This document shows, piece after piece, positions 41,931-60,367 of a stretch of 64,000 nt of DNA (the first letter of the stretch is position 1; the number at the start of each line of letters is the position of its first letter). This DNA is from Zasmidium citrigriseum. Lineage: Eukaryota; Ascomycota; Dothideomycetes; Mycosphaerellales; Mycosphaerellaceae. The notes below the pieces were generated by a model that did no database searches, had not been told where the DNA came from, and saw nothing but the letters and a program-made list of their open reading frames with translations. The position numbers were made by a program, and so were the translations under genes. The stretch spans positions 62,001 to 126,000 of the forward strand of contig NHNW01000074.1 in assembly GCA_002786025.1 (NCBI GenBank). Direction: 5' to 3'.

Positions 41931-44900
41931 CCGCCTCGTAGCTAGTAAGCGTAAGTGCGGGATTAGTAAGATACGTAGCCTACTAAAGTTAGTATACTCT
42001 ATTCTCTATAGTTAAATATAGCTAAGATTCTCTCTTATTTAGAATATTTAAAATTATAATATTTAAAGAGCTTTAGATACTTAAAACGCCTTATTATACT
42101 ATATAGATTTCTAAACTTTTTTAGAATATATTTAGTAACCTTATTCTAAGACTTAATATATAATTCTATAGTATAGAGAGTATTAGATAGTTAAATAGCT
42201 TACTACTTAGTATAGAATATTATAACTTATACCTACTATTTAGGATTTTTTAATCTTTTAGAGAGTATATCCTAAAATATACTATATAATTCTATAGTAT
42301 AAGGTAGTTAAATAGCTTACTACTTAGTATAGAATACTATATTTTATATTTACTAAACTTAGTAAAAGATTCTAACGTTTAGAAACGTTTAGATACTTTA
42401 GAAATCTACTTCTAAGTATAGAATACTATAGTATATATCTACTATTTAGGTCTCTAAGCTCTTCTAGAATAAGCTTAGAGAGCTTATTCCTAACTTTAGT
42501 AAGAGATTCTAACGTTTAGAGAGGATTAGATAGTTAAATAGCTTATTTTAAGAGTTTATAATAGTATATATCTACTATTTAGTTTTTTAAAGTTACTTAG
42601 AATAAGCTTAGAGAGCTTATTCCTAAACTTAGTAGAAGATTCTATTATAGGCTAACCTTAATAGCTAAGTTACGTCTAGTAATATAACTTTATCTTAGTC
42701 TATTCTACTAAAGCCTAGGTTTATTAGGCTTCTATTTCTTATTAGAATCTTATTAGATATTAAACTATTTACGCCTAACCCTATTATTATTATCCTTCTA
42801 TAGATTCTAACGTTTAGAGAACTTTTAATTATTAAATAGTTTACTATTTAATATAGAATACTATAGTATATATCTACTATTTTAGTCTTTAAAACCTTTT
42901 AGAATAAGCTTAGAGAGCTTATTCCTAAACTTAGTAAGAGATTCTAATATTTAGAAAGTTTTAAATAGTTAAATAGCTTTCTTAAAGAGTTTAGAATAAG
43001 CTTTAAGCTTATTTCTAGACTTAGTAAAAGATTTAATAATAGTAATATCTATAGAGCTCTAGAGAATTAAATAGCTTATTATAGAATACTATAGTATATA
43101 TCTACTATTTAGTAATCTATAGTTAATCTTTAGAGATAAGCTTAGATAGCTTATTCTTATACTTAAGTATAAGGTTTTATTACGCTTTATACTTTAAGTA
43201 TCTTAGTATAGAAGACTATAATCTATATAGGTTAGAAGTTTCCTTAAATATTAGTAATTAGTAGCTATTTTTTAGGAATAAGCTTAGAGGGCTTATTCTT
43301 TTACTTAAGTATAAGATTTTACGCTATAGGTATAGGACCTAAATAGTATAGAAATATAAGGTATAGAAGGTATTAGATACTATTAAAATTTTAGAAGCTT
43401 TTTAGAATAAGCTTAGAGAGCTTATTCCTAAACCTTAATAAGAGATTTAAAAGTATAGAGAGTTATAGATATTTAAATAGCTTACTTTTTAGTATAGAAT
43501 CTTATAGAATATATCTACTATTTAGCTTTCTAAAACTTTATAGAATAAGCTTAGAGAGCTTATTCCTAAACTTAGTAAGAGATTCTAACGTTTAAAGAGT
43601 TTTATATAGTTAAATAACTTAGTATAGAGATCTATAGCTTATATCTACTATTTAGTTTTCTAGACTTATTTAGAATAAGCTTAGAAAGCTTTAAGTAGTT
43701 TAATAGCTTACTACTTAGTATAGAATACTATATTTAATATTTAGATTTATTAAATCTTTTAGAATAAGCTTAGAACGCTTATTTCTAAACTTAATAAGAA
43801 ATTCTAAAGTTTAGAGCTTTAAAGATATCTTAATAGCTTACTACCTATTATAGAATACTATAGCGTATATCTACTATTTAGGTTCCTAAATAGTCTAAAC
43901 TCTTCTAGAATAAGCTTAGAGAGCTTATTCCTAATTCTAGTAAGGGATTCTAACGTTTAGAGAGTTTTAAATAGTTAAATAACTTATTAAAAGAGTTTAG
44001 AATAATCTTATAAAGCTTACTTCTAAATTTAGTAGAAATTTATAATATTTATATTATTTTAAGTTATAAAGCTTTCTAAATATTATAATCTTCTCTAAAT
44101 ATTATTAAACTCTTTAAAAGTTACTTCCTAAGCTTATTCCTAAAATAAATAAAGATTTCTAATCTTTAGAGGGCTTTAGATAGTTAAATAGCTTAGTACT
44201 TAGTATAGAATATTATAGTTTATACTTACTATTATTTTAGTCTCTTAAATCTTAAAGCTTATTTCTAAATTTAATAAAAAATTCTTCTATTTAGAAAGCT
44301 TTAGATTATTTATTAGCTTATTCTTTAGTATTAAATACTATAGCTTATATCTACTATTCTATTTCCTAGACTCTTCTAGGATAAGCTTAGAAAGCTTATT
44401 CCTAAATTTAGTAAGGAATTCTAACGCTTAGAGAGTTTTTAATAGTATAATAGCTTAGTATAGATTAATATAGCTTATATCTACTATTTATATTTCTAAT
44501 TCTTTTAGAGAGCTTAGTCCTATACTTAGAGTAAGTTCTTATATTTAAAGAGCTTTAGATAGTAAAATATCTTAATATAGATTATAATAACTTATATCTA
44601 CTATTTAGATTTATAAAGTCTTTTTAAATAAACTAAAAGATCCTATTTCTAAACTTAGGGTAAGATTATAAGATTTAGAAAGCTTTAAATAGTAATATAT
44701 CTTAGAATAGACTACTATAGCTTATACTTACTACTTAGTTATTTAAAATATCTTAGAATAAGCTTAGAGAGCTTATTACTAAAATCCTTAACTTAGGATA
44801 GGATTTTAAAGTATATAAAGCTTTAAATATTTTAATATCTTAGTATATAATACTATAGCTTCTATCTACTATTTAGTTTTTTAATACTTCTTAGAATAAG

Positions 44901-46208
44901 CTTTAGAATAAGCTTAGAGGGCTTATTCCTAAACTTAGGATAGACTTCTAAAGTATATAGAACTTTAGGCGTCTAAATACTTTAGTATACTTATTAGTTT
45001 CCTATAGCTTATATCTATTACTTAGCTTTCTAAAACGTCTTAGAATAAGCTTAGAAAGCTTATTCCTAAATTTAGAATAGCGTTTTAGATATATAAATAC
45101 TTTAGTATAGTTATTAGTTTTCTATAGGTTATATCTACTATTTACCTATAATTATAAGTTTTCTATAGCTTATATCTACTACTTAGCTTTCTAAAACTTC
45201 TTAGAATAAGCTTAGAAAGCTTATTCCTAAATTTAGGATAGAGCTTTAGATATTTAAATACTTTAGTATAGTTATTAGTTTCTTATAGGTTATATCTACT
45301 ACTTAGCTTTTAAAAACTTCTTAGAATAAGCTTAGAGAGCTTATTCCTAAACTTAGAATAGGATTTTAGACGTTTAAATACCTTACTATAGTTATTAGTT
45401 TCCTAAACTTAGAAAAGGAGTTTAAAGTATATTAGGCTTTAGACGTTTAAATATATTAGTATAGAATAATATCTACTACTTAGCTTTTTAATACTCCTTA
45501 AAATAAGCTTATAAAGCTTATTTCTAAACTTATTAGAGAATATAGAGCTTTAGATATTTAGATATCTTAATATAGAATACTATAGCTTATATTTACTATT
45601 TAGCTTTCTAATACTTTTTAGAAAGCTAATTCCTTAACTTTATTTATATATAGTTACTTTTTAGTTTAGGAATTAAAGTATAGCTTAGTAATTAGTAGTT
45701 AGCCTTTAGGAATAAGCTTAAAGAACTTAATCCTATATTTAAGTAGTTATTAGTCTTTAATAATAATAGTAATCCTATATTTAAGTAGTTATTAGTCTTT
45801 AATAATAATAGTATACTATAATTTATACTTACTATTTAGTTTTCTTATACTTCTTTTAGAATATTATTTCTAGACTTAGGATAGAATTCTAAAGTATATA
45901 AAGCTTTAGCTATTTAAGTATCTTAGTATAGAATACTATAGCTTAGATCTACTATTTAGTTTACTAATATTTCTTAGAATAAGCTTAGAGAGCTTCTTTC
46001 TAAGTTCTTAAGTAGCTATTAGTTTTTTAAAATAAGCTTTAAGAGCTTATTCTTATATTTAAGTACGAGATTTTATCGCGTCTTACGCTACGGACGTTTT
46101 AGTACGGGAGGCTATAGCCTATATACGCTAGAAATTTCCCTATATACTCGTTCTTATTTTACCTAAAGAGGTACGCTAAGTTTTAGACTTTCTCCCTTTA
46201 TTTTAATT
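41931..46208. repeat. AT-saturated island of degenerate tandem repeats (RIP-like)
   Basis: About 4.3 kb of roughly 70-75% or more A+T with very few CG pairs, against about 50% GC in the flanks. It contains no open frame above about 60 codons. A recurring unit of about 120-155 bases is visible: a block ATATCTACTATTTAG, then the hairpin AATAAGCT-N5-AGCTTATT, then CCTAAACTTAGTAAGAG, TTCTAACGTTTAG and GATAGTTAAATAGCTTA. The hairpin or a close variant starts near 42466, 42599, 42901, 43134, 43275, 43404, 43542, 43672, 43761, 43907, 44378, 44755, 44892, 45042, 45202, 45322, 45500, 45709 and 45976. Composition and decay match repeats hit by RIP in ascomycetes. It may be a dead satellite or transposon array, or heterochromatin with a chromosomal role. 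Confidence 0.85.
45729..45812. repeat. Exact 42-bp tandem duplication
   Basis: Two identical adjacent 42-base units, 45729-45770 and 45771-45812, each starting AATCCTATATTTAAG and ending AATAATAATAGT. Identity suggests a recent slippage or duplication after the surrounding decay. Confidence 0.85.
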
Positions 46209-46586
46209 ACTATTTAGTTTTCTTATACTTCTTTTAGAATATTATTTCTAGACTTAGGATAGAATTCTAAAGTATATAAAGCTTTAGCTATTTAAGTATC
46301 TTAGTATAGAATACTATAGCTTAGATCTACTATTTAGTTTACTAATATTTCTTAGAATAAGCTTAGAGAGCTTCTTCCTAAGTTCTTAAGTAGCTATTAG
46401 TTTTTCGGAATAAGCTTTAAGAGCTTATTCTCGTATTTAAGTGCGAGATTTTGTCGCGTCTTACGCTACGGACGTCTTAGTACGGGAGGCTATAGCCCGT
46501 ATACGCTAGAAATTTCCCCACACGCTCGTTCTCGTTTCGCCTAAAGAGGTGCGCCAAGTTTTGGACTTTCTCCCTTTGTTTTGAAT
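45831..46586. repeat. 378-bp tandem duplication, copies decayed to different degrees
   Basis: Copy A is 45831-46208 and copy B 46209-46586; they align without a gap at an offset of 378 bases. The first about 170 bases are identical and already AT-saturated. In the remainder copy B (nearer the genes) keeps C or G where copy A has T or A, for example CGGAATAAG versus TAAAATAAG, CCCGTATAC versus CCTATATAC, and CTCGTTTCGCC versus CTTATTTTACC. About 25 differences were seen, essentially all C-to-T or G-to-A in the A copy. Confidence 0.9.
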
Positions 46587-52061: not shown

Positions 52062-53525
52062 CTACAGTCTACTCTCTACCGCACCCTGCCACTCTTTACT
52101 CCCCACCAACTTCTGCTTCCCCAACACCCTCCACCCGCCACTCCCCTGCTCCAATCCATTCCTCTTCCCCTCCGGCACATCTCTCCATTTGAACAGCCTC
52201 GTGTAGTCTGTATCCTTGCCCTCCATAACGTCGACCACATGCTCGCCTAGTACTGGAAGGAATTTGAAACCGTGTCCGCTCCCTCCACTCGCAACGATGA
52301 GGTTCGACGTCGAGGGGACGTAATCGATGAGAAAGCTGTTGTCCACCGAGTCGGTATACCAACACAATCTTATCGTGGAAAGCGGCAGCTCCAGCAAATC
52401 CGGCAGATTCTCCTTGCAAAAAGTACGCAGGACGCGCATAGCCTCGTCAGGTACCTTATTCAACTCGACGTTGGGGTAAGAGAGGTCGGTTCTCCCGTCA
52501 TGCGTTTTCTTCGAATAGTTCGTCCACTTCGCCCCTCGAAAAGCAACCTTCACAACTCCATCAGGCGTGCGCGGCATTCCATAGATGCCTCCAATGCGGT
52601 CGTCCGAGTGAGGGGTGTAAGAGCCCATATTCCAGCTCCAGACGGGGAAATTCTCTTCAGAGTACTTATCCCAGAGGTCTTTTCTTTCTTTTGGTAATTG
52701 CACGGCGAGGACGCTGCCGGCGGTTGTTTCGAGGAGGGATTCGACTTCGGGGATGAGAGAAGGTGTCCAGCCGCCACAGGCTATGATTAGGAGGTCTGCG
52801 GAGTGATTCGAGCCGTCGGTTGTGGTGATTCCTGTGACTTTGGAGCCGGACTTTTGGATGGATGCTAACCCATTGCCCGAGCCGAAATACGTCTTCACAT
52901 AACCACTTCTTTGTAGTAAGTGCAACACCCACGCACAAGCCCGGCTCGCCAGCACGAAACCCGCTGTCATATCCAACACCCCATCAACCGGTAGCCCTCT
53001 CTCCCTCCTTCCAAAGGGATCAATCTTCGTCCTCGGGATCCCCTCCTTAATCGCCTCCTTCACCCTCGCCTCATCAGTAACCCGATACTGCGTATGTCGA
53101 ATCTCCCTCGGAAACCCCTCCTGCGTCTCAACTTCCTTCGCCTCAAGTCCATCCCTACTCAACCTCAAAAACCCACAATAATGCCACAACTTGATCTCGG
53201 GATCCAACGCTTCCGGCAACTCACTCCGCGAAGTCTTACTCAAATCCTCATTCCACTGCGTCCAGATTGGCATGGCCTTAAAGGCTAGATCCTGGTAGAG
53301 TTTCTCGCCGCCATAGGAGGCACGAATGATTTTGTTCAGGTCGCAGGAGGCCCCGTGGGCGCCGGCTTCTTCGGCGTAGTGGTTCTTGTCGAAGGGTTGG
53401 CGGTCGAAGATGTGGATGTTTTTGTAGCCGCGTTTGAGGAGGTGGAGGGCTGTTGAGAGACCGAAGACGCCGGCGCCGATGATGAGGATTTTGGAGTTGG
53501 GGTGCAGGTGTGGTTTGGAGGGCAT
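52062..53525 (-). CDS. FAD-dependent amine oxidase (fructosyl amino acid / sarcosine oxidase-like), peroxisomal
   Basis: Single exon, 487 residues from the ATG at 53525; the frame is open further upstream but that part is not conserved in type. The Rossmann FAD site is near residues 13-18 (ILIIGAGVFGLSTALHL), followed by the acidic ribose contact at HIFDR. Other DAO-family blocks are HGASCDLNKIIRASYGG near the flavin, ADLLIIACGGWTPSL, and the C-terminal ASGGSGHGFKFLPVLGE. This group oxidises N-methyl, glycated or related secondary amines with hydrogen peroxide as by-product. The chain ends in SRL, a PTS1 peroxisomal signal, which suits a peroxide-producing oxidase. Exact substrate unknown. 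Confidence 0.9.
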   Translation of the reverse strand: MPSKPHLHPNSKILIIGAGVFGLSTALHLLKRGYKNIHIFDRQPFDKNHYAEEAGAHGASCDLNKIIRASYGGEKLYQDLAFKAMPIWTQWNEDLSKTSRSELPEALDPEIKLWHYCGFLRLSRDGLEAKEVETQEGFPREIRHTQYRVTDEARVKEAIKEGIPRTKIDPFGRRERGLPVDGVLDMTAGFVLASRACAWVLHLLQRSGYVKTYFGSGNGLASIQKSGSKVTGITTTDGSNHSADLLIIACGGWTPSLIPEVESLLETTAGSVLAVQLPKERKDLWDKYSEENFPVWSWNMGSYTPHSDDRIGGIYGMPRTPDGVVKVAFRGAKWTNYSKKTHDGRTDLSYPNVELNKVPDEAMRVLRTFCKENLPDLLELPLSTIRLCWYTDSVDNSFLIDYVPSTSNLIVASGGSGHGFKFLPVLGEHVVDVMEGKDTDYTRLFKWRDVPEGKRNGLEQGSGGWRVLGKQKLVGSKEWQGAVESRL

Positions 53526-53804
53526 GCTTGATGGTGGCAAAGGGCCAGGGCGATCCTTCTGCGGAGTCAAGATGATGGTATTCGAATCGCCGGGCTGTTT
53601 TTCTGACTTTTGCTTGGTTTGTTTGGTCCAGGACGGAGCTTGTCTTGAGATCAAAGGAAGTTCAAAGTTGTTGTTGAGTCGAATGCATCTCTGGCCTAAG
53701 GTAGTCGTTAGTGGTGGAGACCTTGATGATAGAGTTGCCCACCAATCAGGTCTCACAGATTCCCTGGCCGATCTGCTGAGTGAAGACGAAATATCGAGCT
53801 CCTA

Positions 53805-56800
53805 TCACGATCTTCCTCTCGAGGGCATTCTCTCAAACCCAGCATCGTCGGGTATGTCCAGCTTTCCTTTCGTCTCTCTCCTTCTCGAGCCTCTCTCCCT
53901 CAAGTTCTGCTGCGGGTTCGCCTCGTGACTTCGCCGGTACGCGATCATGACTCTTTCGACAGCTTCGTCTAATGCTTTGCCTTCGAGTTGATGCTTGTCT
54001 CTCAGATGATCTATGAACTCTTCAGAATCGCTCCAGCAAGGGTCGCTCATTTGATTCTGATGCCGCAAAGCGCAGCGGAACTCCGTCCCAGTGGCAAATC
54101 TTGCCCATCGAGAGCGATTGTGGACTCTGAGACGGCGGCGGCCGACTAGTGATTGAGCGCACTCGGTAAAGTAATTTTGGACATCCGGATTCTCAAGCCA
54201 GCGATTGAAGACAGTCTCGATCTGGGCGCGTGTCTTCCAGCCGGATTTCGTATTCGATTGCGACATAGCCGGCTCCCATTCGTCCGGAGCCATGTTCGAG
54301 ACATGGTAGGCGGTCTCTTCTGCGTCGGGGTCGATGCGGTAGTATTCAAAGCCATCCTGCTTTGCTGCGCCGTCGACGGCGATGTGAACTCGTTCGGGTT
54401 CGAAAGATCTGGCGAGGATGTTCCTGCTTTCTGCGCCTTTGACTGTCGTTCCAACACTGACGATTGTGCCTGCAGAGGCTACTCCAGCTGCTGTGTCAAT
54501 CTCACGCATTCCGAACAATGTCGGATTGAAGTGAAAGCCAAAACCGCCATGCTCAAACATCACACGGTAATTCGTACCCTTCAAAGTCAGAGGCTCAAAG
54601 TAGCCAGGTGAGACTGTTGTCGCACGAGCGACCAGGCCAATGTCAAGTCTTGCAGCATTCATAGCAGTGCCAACCAGCGGACTGGAATGGCTGCTCTCGA
54701 GCAAAGCCAGGGGCTTGTCGAACACCAGCATCTGTGATGTTTGGGAGCCTTGCGCTGCCGGGCTAGGAGATCTGTCGGCAAGGCTGTCTCTGTAAGATCG
54801 TAATACGCGGACCTTGCGAAAGCTGCGGTCGTGTTCGGCGCTCTCGATGGCGGTCACGAAGCTGTGAACTATCAGCATAGACCGAGCAGGCGTTCTCAAA
54901 TAGATTAGTGGCATACGTCCGGCAGGTACGAGACTTGGAACTGAATTTGAGCGTCCCATTCCTATACCAGTTCCACGACGACTTCTCCGCCATGTTCTCC
55001 ATGAAGTCCTCGAGTTTCGATGCATCGTACTTGGGCTTGTTTCGAAAGTATGTCGTGATTGACCCGGCTTCTTGGAAGACTTCTTCTCCCAGTCTTTCGA
55101 ACTCGGTGATGCAGTCGCAGATGGCCATGTGCAGCCTGCCGAGCATGATGGCGACGAGACTGAACGAGATCAGCTCATGTTACGATTTCAGAGTGTATGT
55201 GAACGACTTGCCCTCCGAAACTTGCACCTCCGATGTAGTCGAAGTAGTGGCAGAGAAGAAATCTCTTGCTGGGAGTCAGCGCCTTGAAGGTCTCGTCATC
55301 TTGTCCAGTGTAGTGTGTTTGGAGTGCTAGTTCAGTCGGGCTCGGGGGCCGTGCCACATCATTGGGGTATGGCTCAGGCTGGAAGCTGTGATAGTGAGGC
55401 TCATTGTGATTCTCTTCTTCTTCCGCAATGCATTCGACCAGCTTGTTGAGTGCTAGCAAAGTCCAGTACGAGCGAAGATCGCTGCCATCTGCCGTCCGTT
55501 AGTGGCCACCCGTTACATGAGTCTTTGTACTTGCCTAGTGTAAGTAAGTTGCATTTCTCCCAAGCTTCTTCAATCGATGCTTGAAAGTCAGCGTCTTGCC
55601 CATGTGAAGTTCCTGCTAGTCGTAGTTTGCTCGAGTAAGGCTCCCATGCGTCTGCCAGAACATACACAAGTCGATAGGATACTGGCTGTGCAGGCTTTGT
55701 CACTGTCTGTCGTAAATCTGTCGTGCTCGACTCCGTGGCATTGTCCTTGCCCACGCCTAGAAGGAACTCGTCACAATTCACTCGTCGCCAGGAAGCACCG
55801 TGCCGTTTGAGCAAAATTCGAATAACCCGATCCCTCCAACGCCAACCCTTATGCTCGGCATCTTCGCCGGGCTTTTTGCTCTTCCAGCAACTGAGTGTAA
55901 ACGTCTCCACGTCTCGTCCGAACAGAGTATCGTGAGCAGAATCTGTTCGATGACCATGGGAAGGTCGTCGCGTACCAGGCTTGGTCGTCGGCTTCGTTTC
56001 AAAGTCTGGAATCCAAAGCTCTAAACCCAGGTTCGTCCAAGTCCAAGGCCGTTGGTGTCGTTGCTGAGGTCGTGCAAACGTCCTAATGTCTCCTGAGCTT
56101 GCAAATGCGTTGGGTCCTGTTGCGAGCATACCAGAGATAGGGAGGTCCGGGTCAGTCCAGGCAAATATTGAGTCGTCATTGGAACTTTTGATGATCTCCA
56201 GTTGTAATCGAAAGAAAGCCTTCTTGCCACCCTCGCCATAGAGTAATGCCATATTCACATCGAAAATACCAAGTAAGCAATATGCGATATCCTCACTGCG
56301 GGTTGTCTGTCGTTGAGATGCCCAGCTCATTCTTTGGGCCACGTTGACCTGTACGAAGAATCAGCATGATGAATGCTTTATCTCAAAGGCTGCATACTCG
56401 AAAAATACGTTCTGGGTGCCGTAAGACTTCAATGTCAATACCTGTGATCTGAGAAAGCATCGGCGCCAGCCCAATCTTGGTGCCCATGAAATGCCATGAG
56501 GAGTCGTAAAACAAAACCTGCTTCGGTGCCAACAGCTCCTGCAGCGTCCATCCTCTCGTCCACCATTTTGACTTGCCCAAAAGATCGACTTCCGAGTTAC
56601 CAGAATGTCCAGACTGTCCAGAATCCCTGTTAGTCAGATTCGAGTTGGTCCAGTTCACATCTGACAAGAAAGCATAACATTCGACAGCAGCCTTATACCA
56701 GCCAAACATGGCATTGATAGCTTCGCTTAGCTCGGCACTGCTTTTCTTGTCAATGCATATGGAGTCGATCCAGATGTAATCGCGTGAGCGGGACTTGGCA

Positions 56801-56976
56801 AGACGGCAAGCTTCGACGACTTTGTGGTGGCCTTGGCTGTCCTTGCGGCGGCCGTGCAGGAAGTCATCGTGGGATAGCTCGCCATCCTTCCAGCGGTGAG
56901 AGAGCACGGCGTATGGGGGAGTATCGCCGTCATTGAAGTCGGCGAAGCGCAGGGCGGTGGTGTGTAGTAGGCGCAT
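53805..56976 (-). CDS. HET domain - patatin-like fusion protein with two GC-AG introns
   Basis: Five exons, 56976-56398, 56348-55535, 55488-55212, 55159-54917 and 54861-53805, give 989 residues. Introns 1 (49 nt) and 4 (55 nt) are GT-AG; introns 2 (55489-55534) and 3 (55160-55211) start GCAAGT and are GC-AG. The HET domain opens the protein (YAVLSHRWKDGELSHDDF; YIWIDSICIDKKSS; WWTRGWTLQELLAP), followed by the usual post-HET block (SEDIAYCLLGIFDVNMALLY). From about residue 461 a patatin-like domain begins: CNLLTLDGSDLRSYWTLLAL, then YFDYIGGASFGG with Ser554, LVAIMLGRLHM, and ARATTVSPGYFEPL. The oxyanion-hole DGGGxRG reads DGSDLRS, and the catalytic DG[GA] reads EHGG (His about 742), so lipase activity is doubtful. 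HET proteins act in self/non-self cell death. Confidence 0.83.
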
Positions 56977-57493
56977 TTTGGCAACACCATTCGGGCGGGG
57001 TAGCTGGAGTGTGGTCCACAGTCTTTCTTCGTGTTATTGGCATAGTGTATTGCTGAGTGCGATAAAGGAATTGACGGAAGGATGCAATAGAAATGATGAG
57101 GCTGAGGTAATGTTTGGACTACTGCATCTCGTCCGTCGAGACTCGGCTTTGGCGTGCAGCTGGGCTGAAAGCGAGAAAAGTTGACTCTACCTCCATTTTC
57201 TCATCCTTTCTTCGTAGGATCTCCCCTGTCGATGTGGTCCAAAGGAGGCAGCGCAATCACCAGATTGGATGTAGGCCAATGAGTCGAGATAGGAGGTGAA
57301 GTGAACAGTCCCTTCGCCTTGACCGTTGCACTGGGAGAGCCACCGACGTCAGGCGCAGCCACAGGGCAGTGGAAGCTTCCTGGAAGGCGATGAGGCTCTT
57401 GCCGGCTTGATGCTCCTCCTCGACCATGCTGCGACATGAACATGCGGGGATCTGCTCCAGGATCGGTGGCGTAACGACGATACTGAAGATGCG
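56977..57493. promoter_or_regulatory. Divergent promoter region, HET-patatin / Spo71-like
   Basis: About 520 bases between divergent starts. No clear TATA box or repeat seen. Confidence 0.4.
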
Positions 57494-60367
57494 ATGAGTC
57501 GAAACGCTCCCCTCCCACCGGAGTCGTATACCGCTCGCCGGCTCGAGCACGCCACGCCGCAACACCTCCACCAAACCACCCACCGAGTCTTCATCGGACC
57601 AATCCCCGAGGGCTGGCTCAAGAGCCACAGGAAGCAATGGTACAAGCAGTATGTCGGCGGTGGTAAGAGAGCTCCGACTTTCACTGCCGCCCACCCTATA
57701 GCGCGCCCCGATTCCCAGCACGCGGGCCAGGACGAGAGGAGCGACGAAGTTAGGACTTCGGCTACCTTATCTGCGGAGGGCTCTACGCTGCGGGAACCCG
57801 AGAATGCCACCAGTCAGACCAGTCTACTGCACAGCCAACGCGTGAGCTCCATCAGCGCCGTCAGTCGTCCAACCCAGGAGGAGACCCACGATGGAGCCCA
57901 AGACGAGGTCCAGCCAAGCACTGCGCCTGCCGTCCAACCAATCCTCCAGCAGCGCGGGAACACGTCTCGACTCGATCGAGCAGCCACCAAACTACCCAAA
58001 GTCCGATTCACCGAGGCCAGCAAGCTCCAACTGCGAGCAAGAGCACAGCGCCTTGCAGCCCGAGGCAACTTTCGAAGCTCTAAGGTGAAGGATGGAGAGA
58101 TGGTCAAGGTCGACAAGATGCTCATTCGCATCGATATCACTCAACAGTCTTTGAGAGAGGACTTCGACGAGAAGGTCAGCCAGGGCGTAGAGACCAAGAG
58201 CTTGGACAAGTGGCGGGAGTTCATGGTAGTGTGCCGAAAGCATACTGAAGAAGACGCGGAATATGTCCTGCAGTTCTACCAGACAAGAGTCATCGCTGTG
58301 TCGGAAGGGGAGAAGGTCAGAAAGAAGCCCAAAGTGCAGATACTCCTAAGCAACAGACGGGCCCGAGTCAACCTCTACTCGTCCTTGGATAAGACGCTGT
58401 GCGTCTGGACAACGAACAACTTGCGTACGACCATCTACTATCTGCGAGCTCAGTCTACCGCTGCGGCAGTCGAGTGGTATACCTTCCTGCGCGGACTGCT
58501 GGGACATAAGCGAGCCCAGGCCTTGCAGGTCAACATTCCCGACTTGAGCGTTAGTCTACGACTGGACGACCCCTTCAAAGCTCTCGAAACGTCGCAGACA
58601 CTTGCTGAGGCTGCAGAAGGTGATGAGGAAGCGTTGGCGAGGGCTGTGAACGAAGAGAAGGGCGCTGCTGGTGCCATTGTGGCGAGATGCATCGATATGC
58701 TCAAGCAAACGCCAGAGTGGGCAGACGTCCTGAAAGCGTGGGCTCAGTACGACCGAATTGGCCTGGCATGGAAACGCTACGATCGACTGGAGTGGATCTA
58801 CGGCGCCGTAGAGCAGAGAATGTACGGCACCATCGCCATGCAACGCACACATGATCTGGAGTTGCGGCCCAAAGACCACTACCCATTGACCACGAAGATC
58901 GCAAACGGACCTACTTTCGAAGAACCACCGCCAGTCGAAGGCTTCCTCATTCGCCTGACATCGCAAAAGGGAAAGGAGAGACGGTTGGGCAAGATGATGT
59001 TCAAGCGGCTATACTTCACCTCACACAACCAATTCCTTTTGTTTCTTCAACCAGCTAAAGCGACGCCGCCCCCACCGCCGAAGATGCCAACCCGCCAAAA
59101 CGAGACGAGCGTCCCATCTGCGAAAGAGATATCCGAACAGGTACCTTTAGCATACGACGTGGATCCGTATCCTCTTGAGGGCGGCCACATCACCTGGCTC
59201 GACACCGAAGGCGTTAAGTCTGCCAAAGAGCAAGAGCGTCGTGATAAAGAGGCATCAGCTGAAGCTGACCGTAATGTTGACATGGTGATGGCTTCTGATG
59301 GATTCATCAACCTTTGCAACATCAAGCGCGTTCGACAGTTCCAGAGGGGAGCTACTGCAGTAGACGCCAATCTTACGGATGGTGAAGATGTCGACTTTCA
59401 CGATCACGTTGACAATAACCGCCAGGACGATGGCGGTACCAGCGAAGTCGAGGAAGACCGTGTTCTGGAACTGGTCATGAAAAACGGGCTTATCATCCGC
59501 CTCCAAGCGTTTAACAAAGCTGCCAGGAATGAATGGATGAGACGCCTGCGTGACCTGGTCGAATATTGGACTCAACGCACTAGAGCAGACATGGACCTGT
59601 ACAAACTTACCCGAGAGCAAAACCTCAAACAGCTGGGCATCGACGAGCGTGCCGAAGCCTACGTCGGCCAATTCGCACAGAAGTGGGAAGTTGGCCAGTC
59701 TTACGCTTCTCCAAGTCTCTACAACATGTGCGGCATCGCTGAATGCCGTACCATCCATCTCTCTGGCACCCTTTTCCGCAAACCAAGAAAGCACACCACA
59801 TTCTCCCGCTGCCACGTCATTCTCTCCCACGGCCATCTTCTCGTCTTTCAGGATACCCTTCGGAAACGCACCGGCAAGAAGCTTGTGCATATCCACCACG
59901 AGCGCATCGCTTCCATCTCGCTCGAAGGATGCTATCTCTACTCGGGTCTTCTTACCGAGAATGATCTGCTCTACCAGAATCAGACTTTTGATTCCAACGC
60001 CCCTGGCCACCACGCACTTCCCCGCATCTATCTCGAAGACAACTGGACGAGCACGGACGAGGACGCCATGACGACCTTTGTCATCTGGCATTCTAAGAGT
60101 CGATCCTGGTTCAAGAGCTCGCAATTCGTCGACGACTTAAAGAACCAAGAGCGTAGTGAAGACACGGCTTCGAGACGAGCGAGAACCAAGACTAAGCTGA
60201 CCAGAGTGAGTCAACTGGGAGCCACGGGACGCAGTGTCGTCTTTAAAGCGAGGAGTCGTGCTGAGAGGGATCACTGGGTTCTGGCAATCCAAGTTGAGAT
60301 CGAGCGTCTTGCAGCGCAGAACGAAGAAGTGAGAATCGTTGACGAGAATGGGGATGCTAAGAAGTAA
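57494..60367 (+). CDS. Spo71-like PH-domain protein
   Basis: Single exon of 957 residues. After a disordered N-terminal third, regions similar to fungal Spo71 appear: SLDKWREFMVVCRKH with a following beta-rich segment; a PH domain near residues 490-700 opened by VEGFLIRLTSQKGKERRLGK and interrupted by a long acidic insert before FNKAARNEWMRRLRDLVEYW; and a second PH-like domain (IHLSGTLFRKPRKHTTFSRC ... RAERDHWVLAIQVEIERL). Spo71 in yeast helps shape the prospore membrane together with the Vps13 adaptor Spo73. In filamentous fungi the role is unproved but probably membrane or lipid-contact related, possibly in ascospore formation. No signal peptide or membrane helix. Confidence 0.8.
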   Translation: MSRNAPLPPESYTARRLEHATPQHLHQTTHRVFIGPIPEGWLKSHRKQWYKQYVGGGKRAPTFTAAHPIARPDSQHAGQDERSDEVRTSATLSAEGSTLREPENATSQTSLLHSQRVSSISAVSRPTQEETHDGAQDEVQPSTAPAVQPILQQRGNTSRLDRAATKLPKVRFTEASKLQLRARAQRLAARGNFRSSKVKDGEMVKVDKMLIRIDITQQSLREDFDEKVSQGVETKSLDKWREFMVVCRKHTEEDAEYVLQFYQTRVIAVSEGEKVRKKPKVQILLSNRRARVNLYSSLDKTLCVWTTNNLRTTIYYLRAQSTAAAVEWYTFLRGLLGHKRAQALQVNIPDLSVSLRLDDPFKALETSQTLAEAAEGDEEALARAVNEEKGAAGAIVARCIDMLKQTPEWADVLKAWAQYDRIGLAWKRYDRLEWIYGAVEQRMYGTIAMQRTHDLELRPKDHYPLTTKIANGPTFEEPPPVEGFLIRLTSQKGKERRLGKMMFKRLYFTSHNQFLLFLQPAKATPPPPPKMPTRQNETSVPSAKEISEQVPLAYDVDPYPLEGGHITWLDTEGVKSAKEQERRDKEASAEADRNVDMVMASDGFINLCNIKRVRQFQRGATAVDANLTDGEDVDFHDHVDNNRQDDGGTSEVEEDRVLELVMKNGLIIRLQAFNKAARNEWMRRLRDLVEYWTQRTRADMDLYKLTREQNLKQLGIDERAEAYVGQFAQKWEVGQSYASPSLYNMCGIAECRTIHLSGTLFRKPRKHTTFSRCHVILSHGHLLVFQDTLRKRTGKKLVHIHHERIASISLEGCYLYSGLLTENDLLYQNQTFDSNAPGHHALPRIYLEDNWTSTDEDAMTTFVIWHSKSRSWFKSSQFVDDLKNQERSEDTASRRARTKTKLTRVSQLGATGRSVVFKARSRAERDHWVLAIQVEIERLAAQNEEVRIVDENGDAKK

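Follow-up and report, generated by a model that had tools for sequence, protein, structure and literature searches.

A HET-patatin gene of Zasmidium citrigriseum whose patatin part lacks the canonical active site, compared with known fungal incompatibility proteins

Known HET and patatin systems and the locus compared with them

In Podospora anserina, the BH protein of the het-B locus is made of a HET domain, a HAD, and a C-terminal lectin fold that sets specificity (PMC10890737; this and the other publications are cited here from excerpts). HET domains are reported to be sufficient for cell death (PMC10890737, PMC12881547, PMC10197012), and Sordariales possess 117 HET proteins on average (PMC10890737). 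Patatin proteins also function in fungal incompatibility (PMC12881547, PMC11138114). NLRs of the PLP-1 type consist of an N-terminal patatin domain followed by NB-ARC and TPR, and PLP-1 killing is reported to require patatin activity (PMC12881547, PMC10197012). Patatin in fungal NLRs is almost invariably coupled to NB-ARC (PMC4986451). Finally, hetC of Aspergillus fumigatus is a patatin-like het protein (PMC11138114).

We analysed a window, that is, a stretch of 64,000 nucleotides of Zasmidium citrigriseum, containing a five-exon coding region for 989 amino acids and a stop (53805..56976; minus strand, as for all features of this gene given below). Its spliced translation agreed with a previous sequence-only reading that had proposed a single chain in which a HET domain precedes a patatin domain with neither NACHT nor NB-ARC, and Pfam recognized HET and Patatin alone at E<=1. 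The HET match covers residues 22-147 (56913-56536) with 51.7 bits for a cut-off of 22.5, while the Patatin match, covering residues 540-736 with 28.7 bits, is barely above its cut-off of 27.7. Altogether, HET at residues 22-147 is followed by a HET-associated region at about 248-430 (55638..56186, defined from relatives and a model) and then by a whole patatin-type module at about 452-989. The HET-associated region also occurs in HET proteins that stand alone, P0059 being one of them. Alignment A4 placed window exon 2 together with 67 of the 120 HET relatives listed. A model of exon 2 reached a mean pLDDT of 72.9, which is a medium confidence, and showed helices and then, at about residues 281-423, strands. 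It had no match in the PDB at E<=0.001, and the predicted strands agree with the description of the HET-associated domain of BH as beta-rich.

Like BH, the window gene has an N-terminal HET domain, a HET-associated region, a separate C-terminal domain, and no NOD. The C-terminal domain is a degenerate patatin here and a lectin fold in BH, and the specificity region of BH is variable whereas the patatin part of the window gene is strongly conserved. Moreover, BH has an adjacent PII-like partner, whereas none was seen next to the window gene. It is flanked by genes for a DAO-type oxidoreductase (frame 52062-53801, minus) and an SPO71-like PH protein (frame 57440-60367, plus), so no obvious partner gene lies next door. 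Of the 33 ORFs of at least 220 aa in the window, 20 were scanned with Pfam; 11 of these 20 matched a family at E<=0.01, and no NOD, SNARE or PII-like family was among them. PLP-1 shares with the window protein the presence of a patatin domain within a protein of the cell-death type, but the patatin of PLP-1 is N-terminal and its activity is required, whereas that of the window protein is C-terminal, without a canonical site and without NB-ARC. As for hetC, it is likewise a patatin-like protein in an incompatibility setting, but no HET domain is mentioned for it in the available excerpt (PMC11138114). No description of a HET-patatin fusion was found in the literature searched, as far as the excerpts extend. 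The parts are familiar, and the combination of HET with a patatin that has lost its canonical site looks new.

A patatin-type module with a lost canonical site

The patatin fold was seen via the model of the closest canonical relative, P0001 from Elasticomyces elasticus, which is 36% identical over 87% of the patatin part. This model (mean pLDDT 80.2, pTM 0.85) matched potato patatin 1oxw_B at 4.9e-10 with a TM of 0.67 by target length, and 14 PDB chains in total were found at E<=0.001, including 1oxw and the phospholipase CapE. The profile of alignment A3, made of 52 sequences without the window and excluding P0039, P0042, P0046, P0049, P0053, P0054, and P0055, also matched CapV and iPLA2beta. 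A single-sequence search of solved structures gave two matches, neither of them useful (best E 0.44). That the patatin part is a retained patatin-family domain is supported. Further downstream, a C...C...H...H stretch was delimited by alignment at residues 899-928 (53991..54080). Such a tail is common to stand-alone patatins and is zinc-finger-like in canonical relatives; in the clade of the window gene, the second Cys is shifted or missing. We infer that this stretch may bind zinc.

The three motifs claimed by the sequence-only reading were all recovered in the translation: DGSDLRS at residues 465-471, GASFG at 552-556 (55228-55214), and EHGG with His742, in which His742-Gly-Gly (54543..54551) replaces the catalytic Asp-Gly-Gly. 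The site is thus non-canonical, in contrast to that of P0001, which reads DGGGIRG, GSSTG, and DGG. The GxSxG nucleophile is present as Ser554 in GASFG, and the canonical DGGGxRG is absent, with three of its six invariant residues altered, one of them to Asp. That reading did not list four further changes: A721V, A722S, T555F next to the Ser, and N749F within the NNP motif. We then looked at the 81 columns that are invariant in eight hand-picked canonical relatives, taken from an alignment of the window with 11 relatives. The window retains 62 of them and alters 19, including G467S, G468D, G471S, T555F, D742H, and N749F, one of the 19 being the start Met of the relatives. Changes were not significantly enriched at the active site (6/16 versus 12/64, Fisher p = 0.18, with active-site columns assigned by hand and the start Met excluded).

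In a first alignment of 55 patatin matches and the window, the catalytic position was Asp in every match and His in the window. Once the relatives found with exon 5 were added, His was present in 4 of 53 rows and Asp in the other 49. In the corresponding 53-row tree, which leaves out the same seven sequences as A3, the His rows (the window, P0176, P0177, and P0178) form one group explained by a single D-to-H change, with a support of 100/94, and P0001 adjoins this group (support 93/81). P0178 shares the His while being 39% identical to window exon 5, and its long branch makes its placement less certain. Judging from the rows compared, loss of the Asp is unique to the His group. The same does not hold for the loop, since nine matches that keep the Asp also deviate from DGGGxRG (P0016, P0025, P0031, P0032, P0035, P0037, P0049, P0051, and P0054), meaning that a weakened loop is not unique to the HET-patatin gene; P0039 has no residues at this position in the 55-match alignment.

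The loops of two close relatives of the HET half, P0056 and P0058, were deduced by shifting the frame of their read-through peptides over exon 3, on the assumption that the start and frame of this exon are those of the window. Within the oxyanion loop, Gly is then impossible at positions three and seven in P0058, and at positions four and seven in P0056; as a control, the same frame shift applied to the window gave the true residues among the options. Active sites were thus compared in relatives, as the sequence-only reading had advised, and none of the close ones is canonical, with His in the exon-5 relatives and loops other than DGGGxRG in P0056 and P0058. Since these relatives share the loss, a sequence error behind it was ruled out, and the loss of the canonical oxyanion loop and catalytic Asp is supported.

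Despite the absence of a canonical site, the domain looks like it is under purifying selection. The patatin core (residues 641-800) is 92% identical to the window in P0176 and 98% in P0177, the latter over 119 of 160 positions, and the C-terminal part (801-989) is 84% and 88% identical, respectively. For the other half, identity to relatives is 95-100% at the HET end (204-247) and 80-84% in the HET-associated region, falling to 58-69% in its loop (308-345), while intron 2 shows no clear similarity among the window and its relatives. The strong conservation of the patatin part argues against decay and against its rapid diversification. An allorecognition surface that diversifies fast would fit it less well than a ligand or partner that is itself conserved.

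A proposed HET receptor and the readings that compete with it

We propose, with a probability of roughly 0.6, that the window gene encodes a non-NLR HET receptor built on a BH-like plan, in which the C-terminal pseudo-patatin would sense and HET would kill. This reading is favoured because HET domains are reported to be sufficient for death, because C-terminal domains set specificity in known HET proteins, and because the C-terminal domain has here lost its canonical site yet stayed conserved. The architecture, the conserved junction, the lost canonical site, and the strong conservation are visible in the sequence, whereas catalytic inactivity, sensing, autoinhibition, and killing are what we infer. 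The patatin part would have kept its fold, lost its canonical catalytic machinery, and taken on a role in binding or sensing. In the resting state, it would keep the HET module silent. A cue would then bind or modify the pseudo-patatin, upon which HET modules would assemble and trigger cell death. This cue may be a partner protein, a lipid that occupies the former substrate pocket, or a factor whose normal target is an active patatin. Several observations count against the receptor reading: Ser554, the nucleophile, is still in place; the patatin part is conserved and not variable as the specificity region of BH is described to be; the Pfam patatin score is 1 bit above the cut-off and the excess of active-site changes is not significant, with the p value of 0.18 given above; P0056 has a Met 35 residues ahead of the patatin strand; and no obvious partner gene lies next door.

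If true, the receptor reading would carry the idea of integrated decoys beyond NLRs, to HET proteins of other build. The activating cues of most fungal HET proteins are obscure, and a C-terminal domain that is recognisable as an enzyme but lacks its canonical site gives a concrete and testable hypothesis for such a cue, namely a lipid or an attack on patatin. As to its origin, a death effector may have been turned into a sensor: the patatin lipase, which does the killing in other fungal immune proteins, would have been catalytically retired and attached as C-terminal domain to HET as the killer. It would then act as a lipid sensor or an integrated decoy and be kept under strong constraint in close relatives; we hold this idea as a possible one, with odds below even. 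The constraint on the retired patatin possibly extends much wider, as the His of P0178 at 39% identity would suggest.

The receptor reading can take two forms, which differ in what would be sensed. In the first, the dead pocket would bind a lipid or fatty acid without hydrolysing it and report membrane damage to HET. The kept fold landmarks, the lost canonical catalysis, and the conservation of the core at 92-98% all speak for such a lipid sensor, which we hold to be less likely than not. In the second form, the domain would mimic an active patatin-like effector or het protein, such as PLP-1 or hetC, so that a factor acting on patatins would trigger HET. Patatins do act in fungal incompatibility according to the excerpts (PMC12881547, PMC11138114), and the assembly contains nine other patatin matches; but the genome holds no close patatin paralogue, the patatin half having three remote genome matches besides its own exons, and no partner was identified. 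We give the decoy form the same odds as the lipid sensor.

Alternatively, the C-terminal domain could still be an enzyme whose rebuilt site combines Ser554 and a changed oxyanion hole with His742 in the role of base, in which case HET and a lipase would be two effectors in one protein. In principle, His742 could act as a base. Ser554 is kept in the GASFG of the window, the His is common to all four rows of the group, and the region is highly conserved. However, half of the invariant DGGGxRG residues are altered, with an Asp among the replacements, and T555F and N749F affect the site too. To our knowledge, no patatin has a Ser-His site. We regard a rebuilt enzyme as improbable.

One gene with two GC-AG introns, and its surroundings

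Exon 1 (56398..56976) encodes residues 1-193 with the HET domain and is followed by intron 1 (GT-AG, 49 nt, 56349..56397). Exon 2 (55535..56348), which encodes residues 194-464 and the first base of codon 465, contains the HET end, the HET-associated region, the linker, and the first patatin strand CNLLTL. Intron 2 (GC-AG, 46 nt, 55489..55534) separates patatin strand 1 from what used to be the oxyanion loop. Exon 3 (55212..55488) carries the degenerate loop and the nucleophile elbow, and intron 3 (GC-AG, 52 nt, 55160..55211) separates it from exon 4 (54917..55159), with the patatin part LVAIMLGRLHMAICDCITE.... After intron 4 (GT-AG, 55 nt, 54862..54916), exon 5 (53805..54861) encodes the remaining patatin module and the C-terminal tail. 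None of the four intron sizes is a multiple of 3, and a CTRAY-like branch site, judged by eye, is present in each. Reading the sequence bore out the earlier claim that introns 2 and 3 begin with GCAAGT, and both end with AG.

In-frame splice options were enumerated for introns 2, 3, and 4, with intron sizes from 35 to about 130 nt, giving 21, 8, and 41 options, respectively. For intron 3, the three in-frame GT-AG alternatives (82-106 nt) each remove the stretch LVAIMLGR...DCITE, which is present in similar form in the eight canonical relatives, while the GC-AG intron yields GGLVAIMLGR. For intron 2, the GC-AG choice yields LTLDG, as in the LxxDGGG of relatives; of its four in-frame GT-AG alternatives, the single one that retains LRSYW uses the donor GTACAA at 55530 (49 nt) and would give LTLGNDLRSYW. 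Both GC-AG introns are well supported. They could conceal the HET-patatin fusion from annotation. Splicing that restores a canonical loop was absent among all the options listed for the three introns, and a GT donor just 5' of intron 3 that would delete the nucleophile was also dropped, no such in-frame option being listed.

The HET-half search (120 of 7975 matches listed, proteins up to about 812 aa) gave P0056-P0058, from source lgn, with an identity of 83-88% that spans 57% of the query. They match the window through E(A/S)WEKCNLLTLG and diverge directly after LTL|G at the intron-2 donor, which indicates that the end of exon 2 sits where the model puts it. Identity across the HET-patatin junction (430-464) is 88-94%. 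Past the divergence point, the relatives have AY, LY, and TC, which suit GT donors better than GCAAGT, so that the GC donor of intron 2 probably arose in the window's own lineage. Reading through intron 2 implies introns of about 47 nt in P0056 and 46 nt in P0058. The lgn records are split but run through intron 2, so they were evidently called without introns, and we read them as coming from environmental or other assemblies. With exon 5 as the query, P0176 and P0177 are 87% and 92% identical. P0056 and P0176 are both on 7801-base contigs, P0058 and P0177 both on 7787-base contigs, and their co-location rests on these equal sizes. The matching contigs make it very likely that the fusion is one conserved gene and that the HET and patatin parts stand together in two further assemblies.

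On the patatin side, in which the 7992 candidates sharing most words were scored, none of the 55 matches has a HET domain. P0001 is one of them: its annotated model is without HET, in contrast to the window gene, and its N terminus looks wrong. As annotated, this N terminus (LTR27_002463) is without the NLLTL strand ahead of DGGG. The annotation probably errs at the counterpart of intron 2, and what really precedes it might be an exon for HET.

Two adjacent genes, one for HET and one for patatin, could have been misread as one. Stand-alone relatives do exist for each half: P0059, of 395 aa, reaches to about window residue 425 and P0001, of 548 aa, starts near residue 440, which indicates that the HET-patatin gene joins two complete modules through a linker some tens of residues long. 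The Met of P0056 mentioned above could also serve a separate patatin, but in P0057 and P0058 the 190 residues ahead of the patatin strand contain no Met, and in the window there is no Met at residues 267-562, which would leave a separate patatin without a start codon. As exon 2 is moreover conserved into patatin strand 1 and the donor position is kept in three relatives, we rejected this very improbable reading, and the single fused gene first suggested by frame continuity stands. A decaying pseudogene is still harder to believe and was rejected as well: several catalytic residues are lost and two GC donors among four introns would seldom arise by chance (about 0.0006, given a GC-AG share of 1.009% among fungal introns in the available excerpt, PMC7072748), but the 989 codons have no stop or frameshift, and regions of exon 5 are 84-98% identical to relatives though intron 2 diverged.

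The 44.4-Mb assembly contains at least 150 HET matches, a count that comes from scoring 150 of 282 candidates. Searched with the HET half, the genome gives 97 matches including the gene's own two exons, the best others being about 50-54% identical. In one patatin paralogue of the assembly, L009 (G000 C69:245300-247800), DGGGVKT replaces DGGGxRG, and the stretch that matches contains two in-frame TAG codons, which are perhaps due to an intron or to a decayed gene. Elsewhere in the window, an AT-rich block is found at about 42000-46400. From 42001 to 46500, the GC content is 0.236, TA/AT is 1.79, and (CA+TG)/(AC+GT) is 0.01, a composition that is, by these indices, an extreme signature of repeat-induced point mutation.
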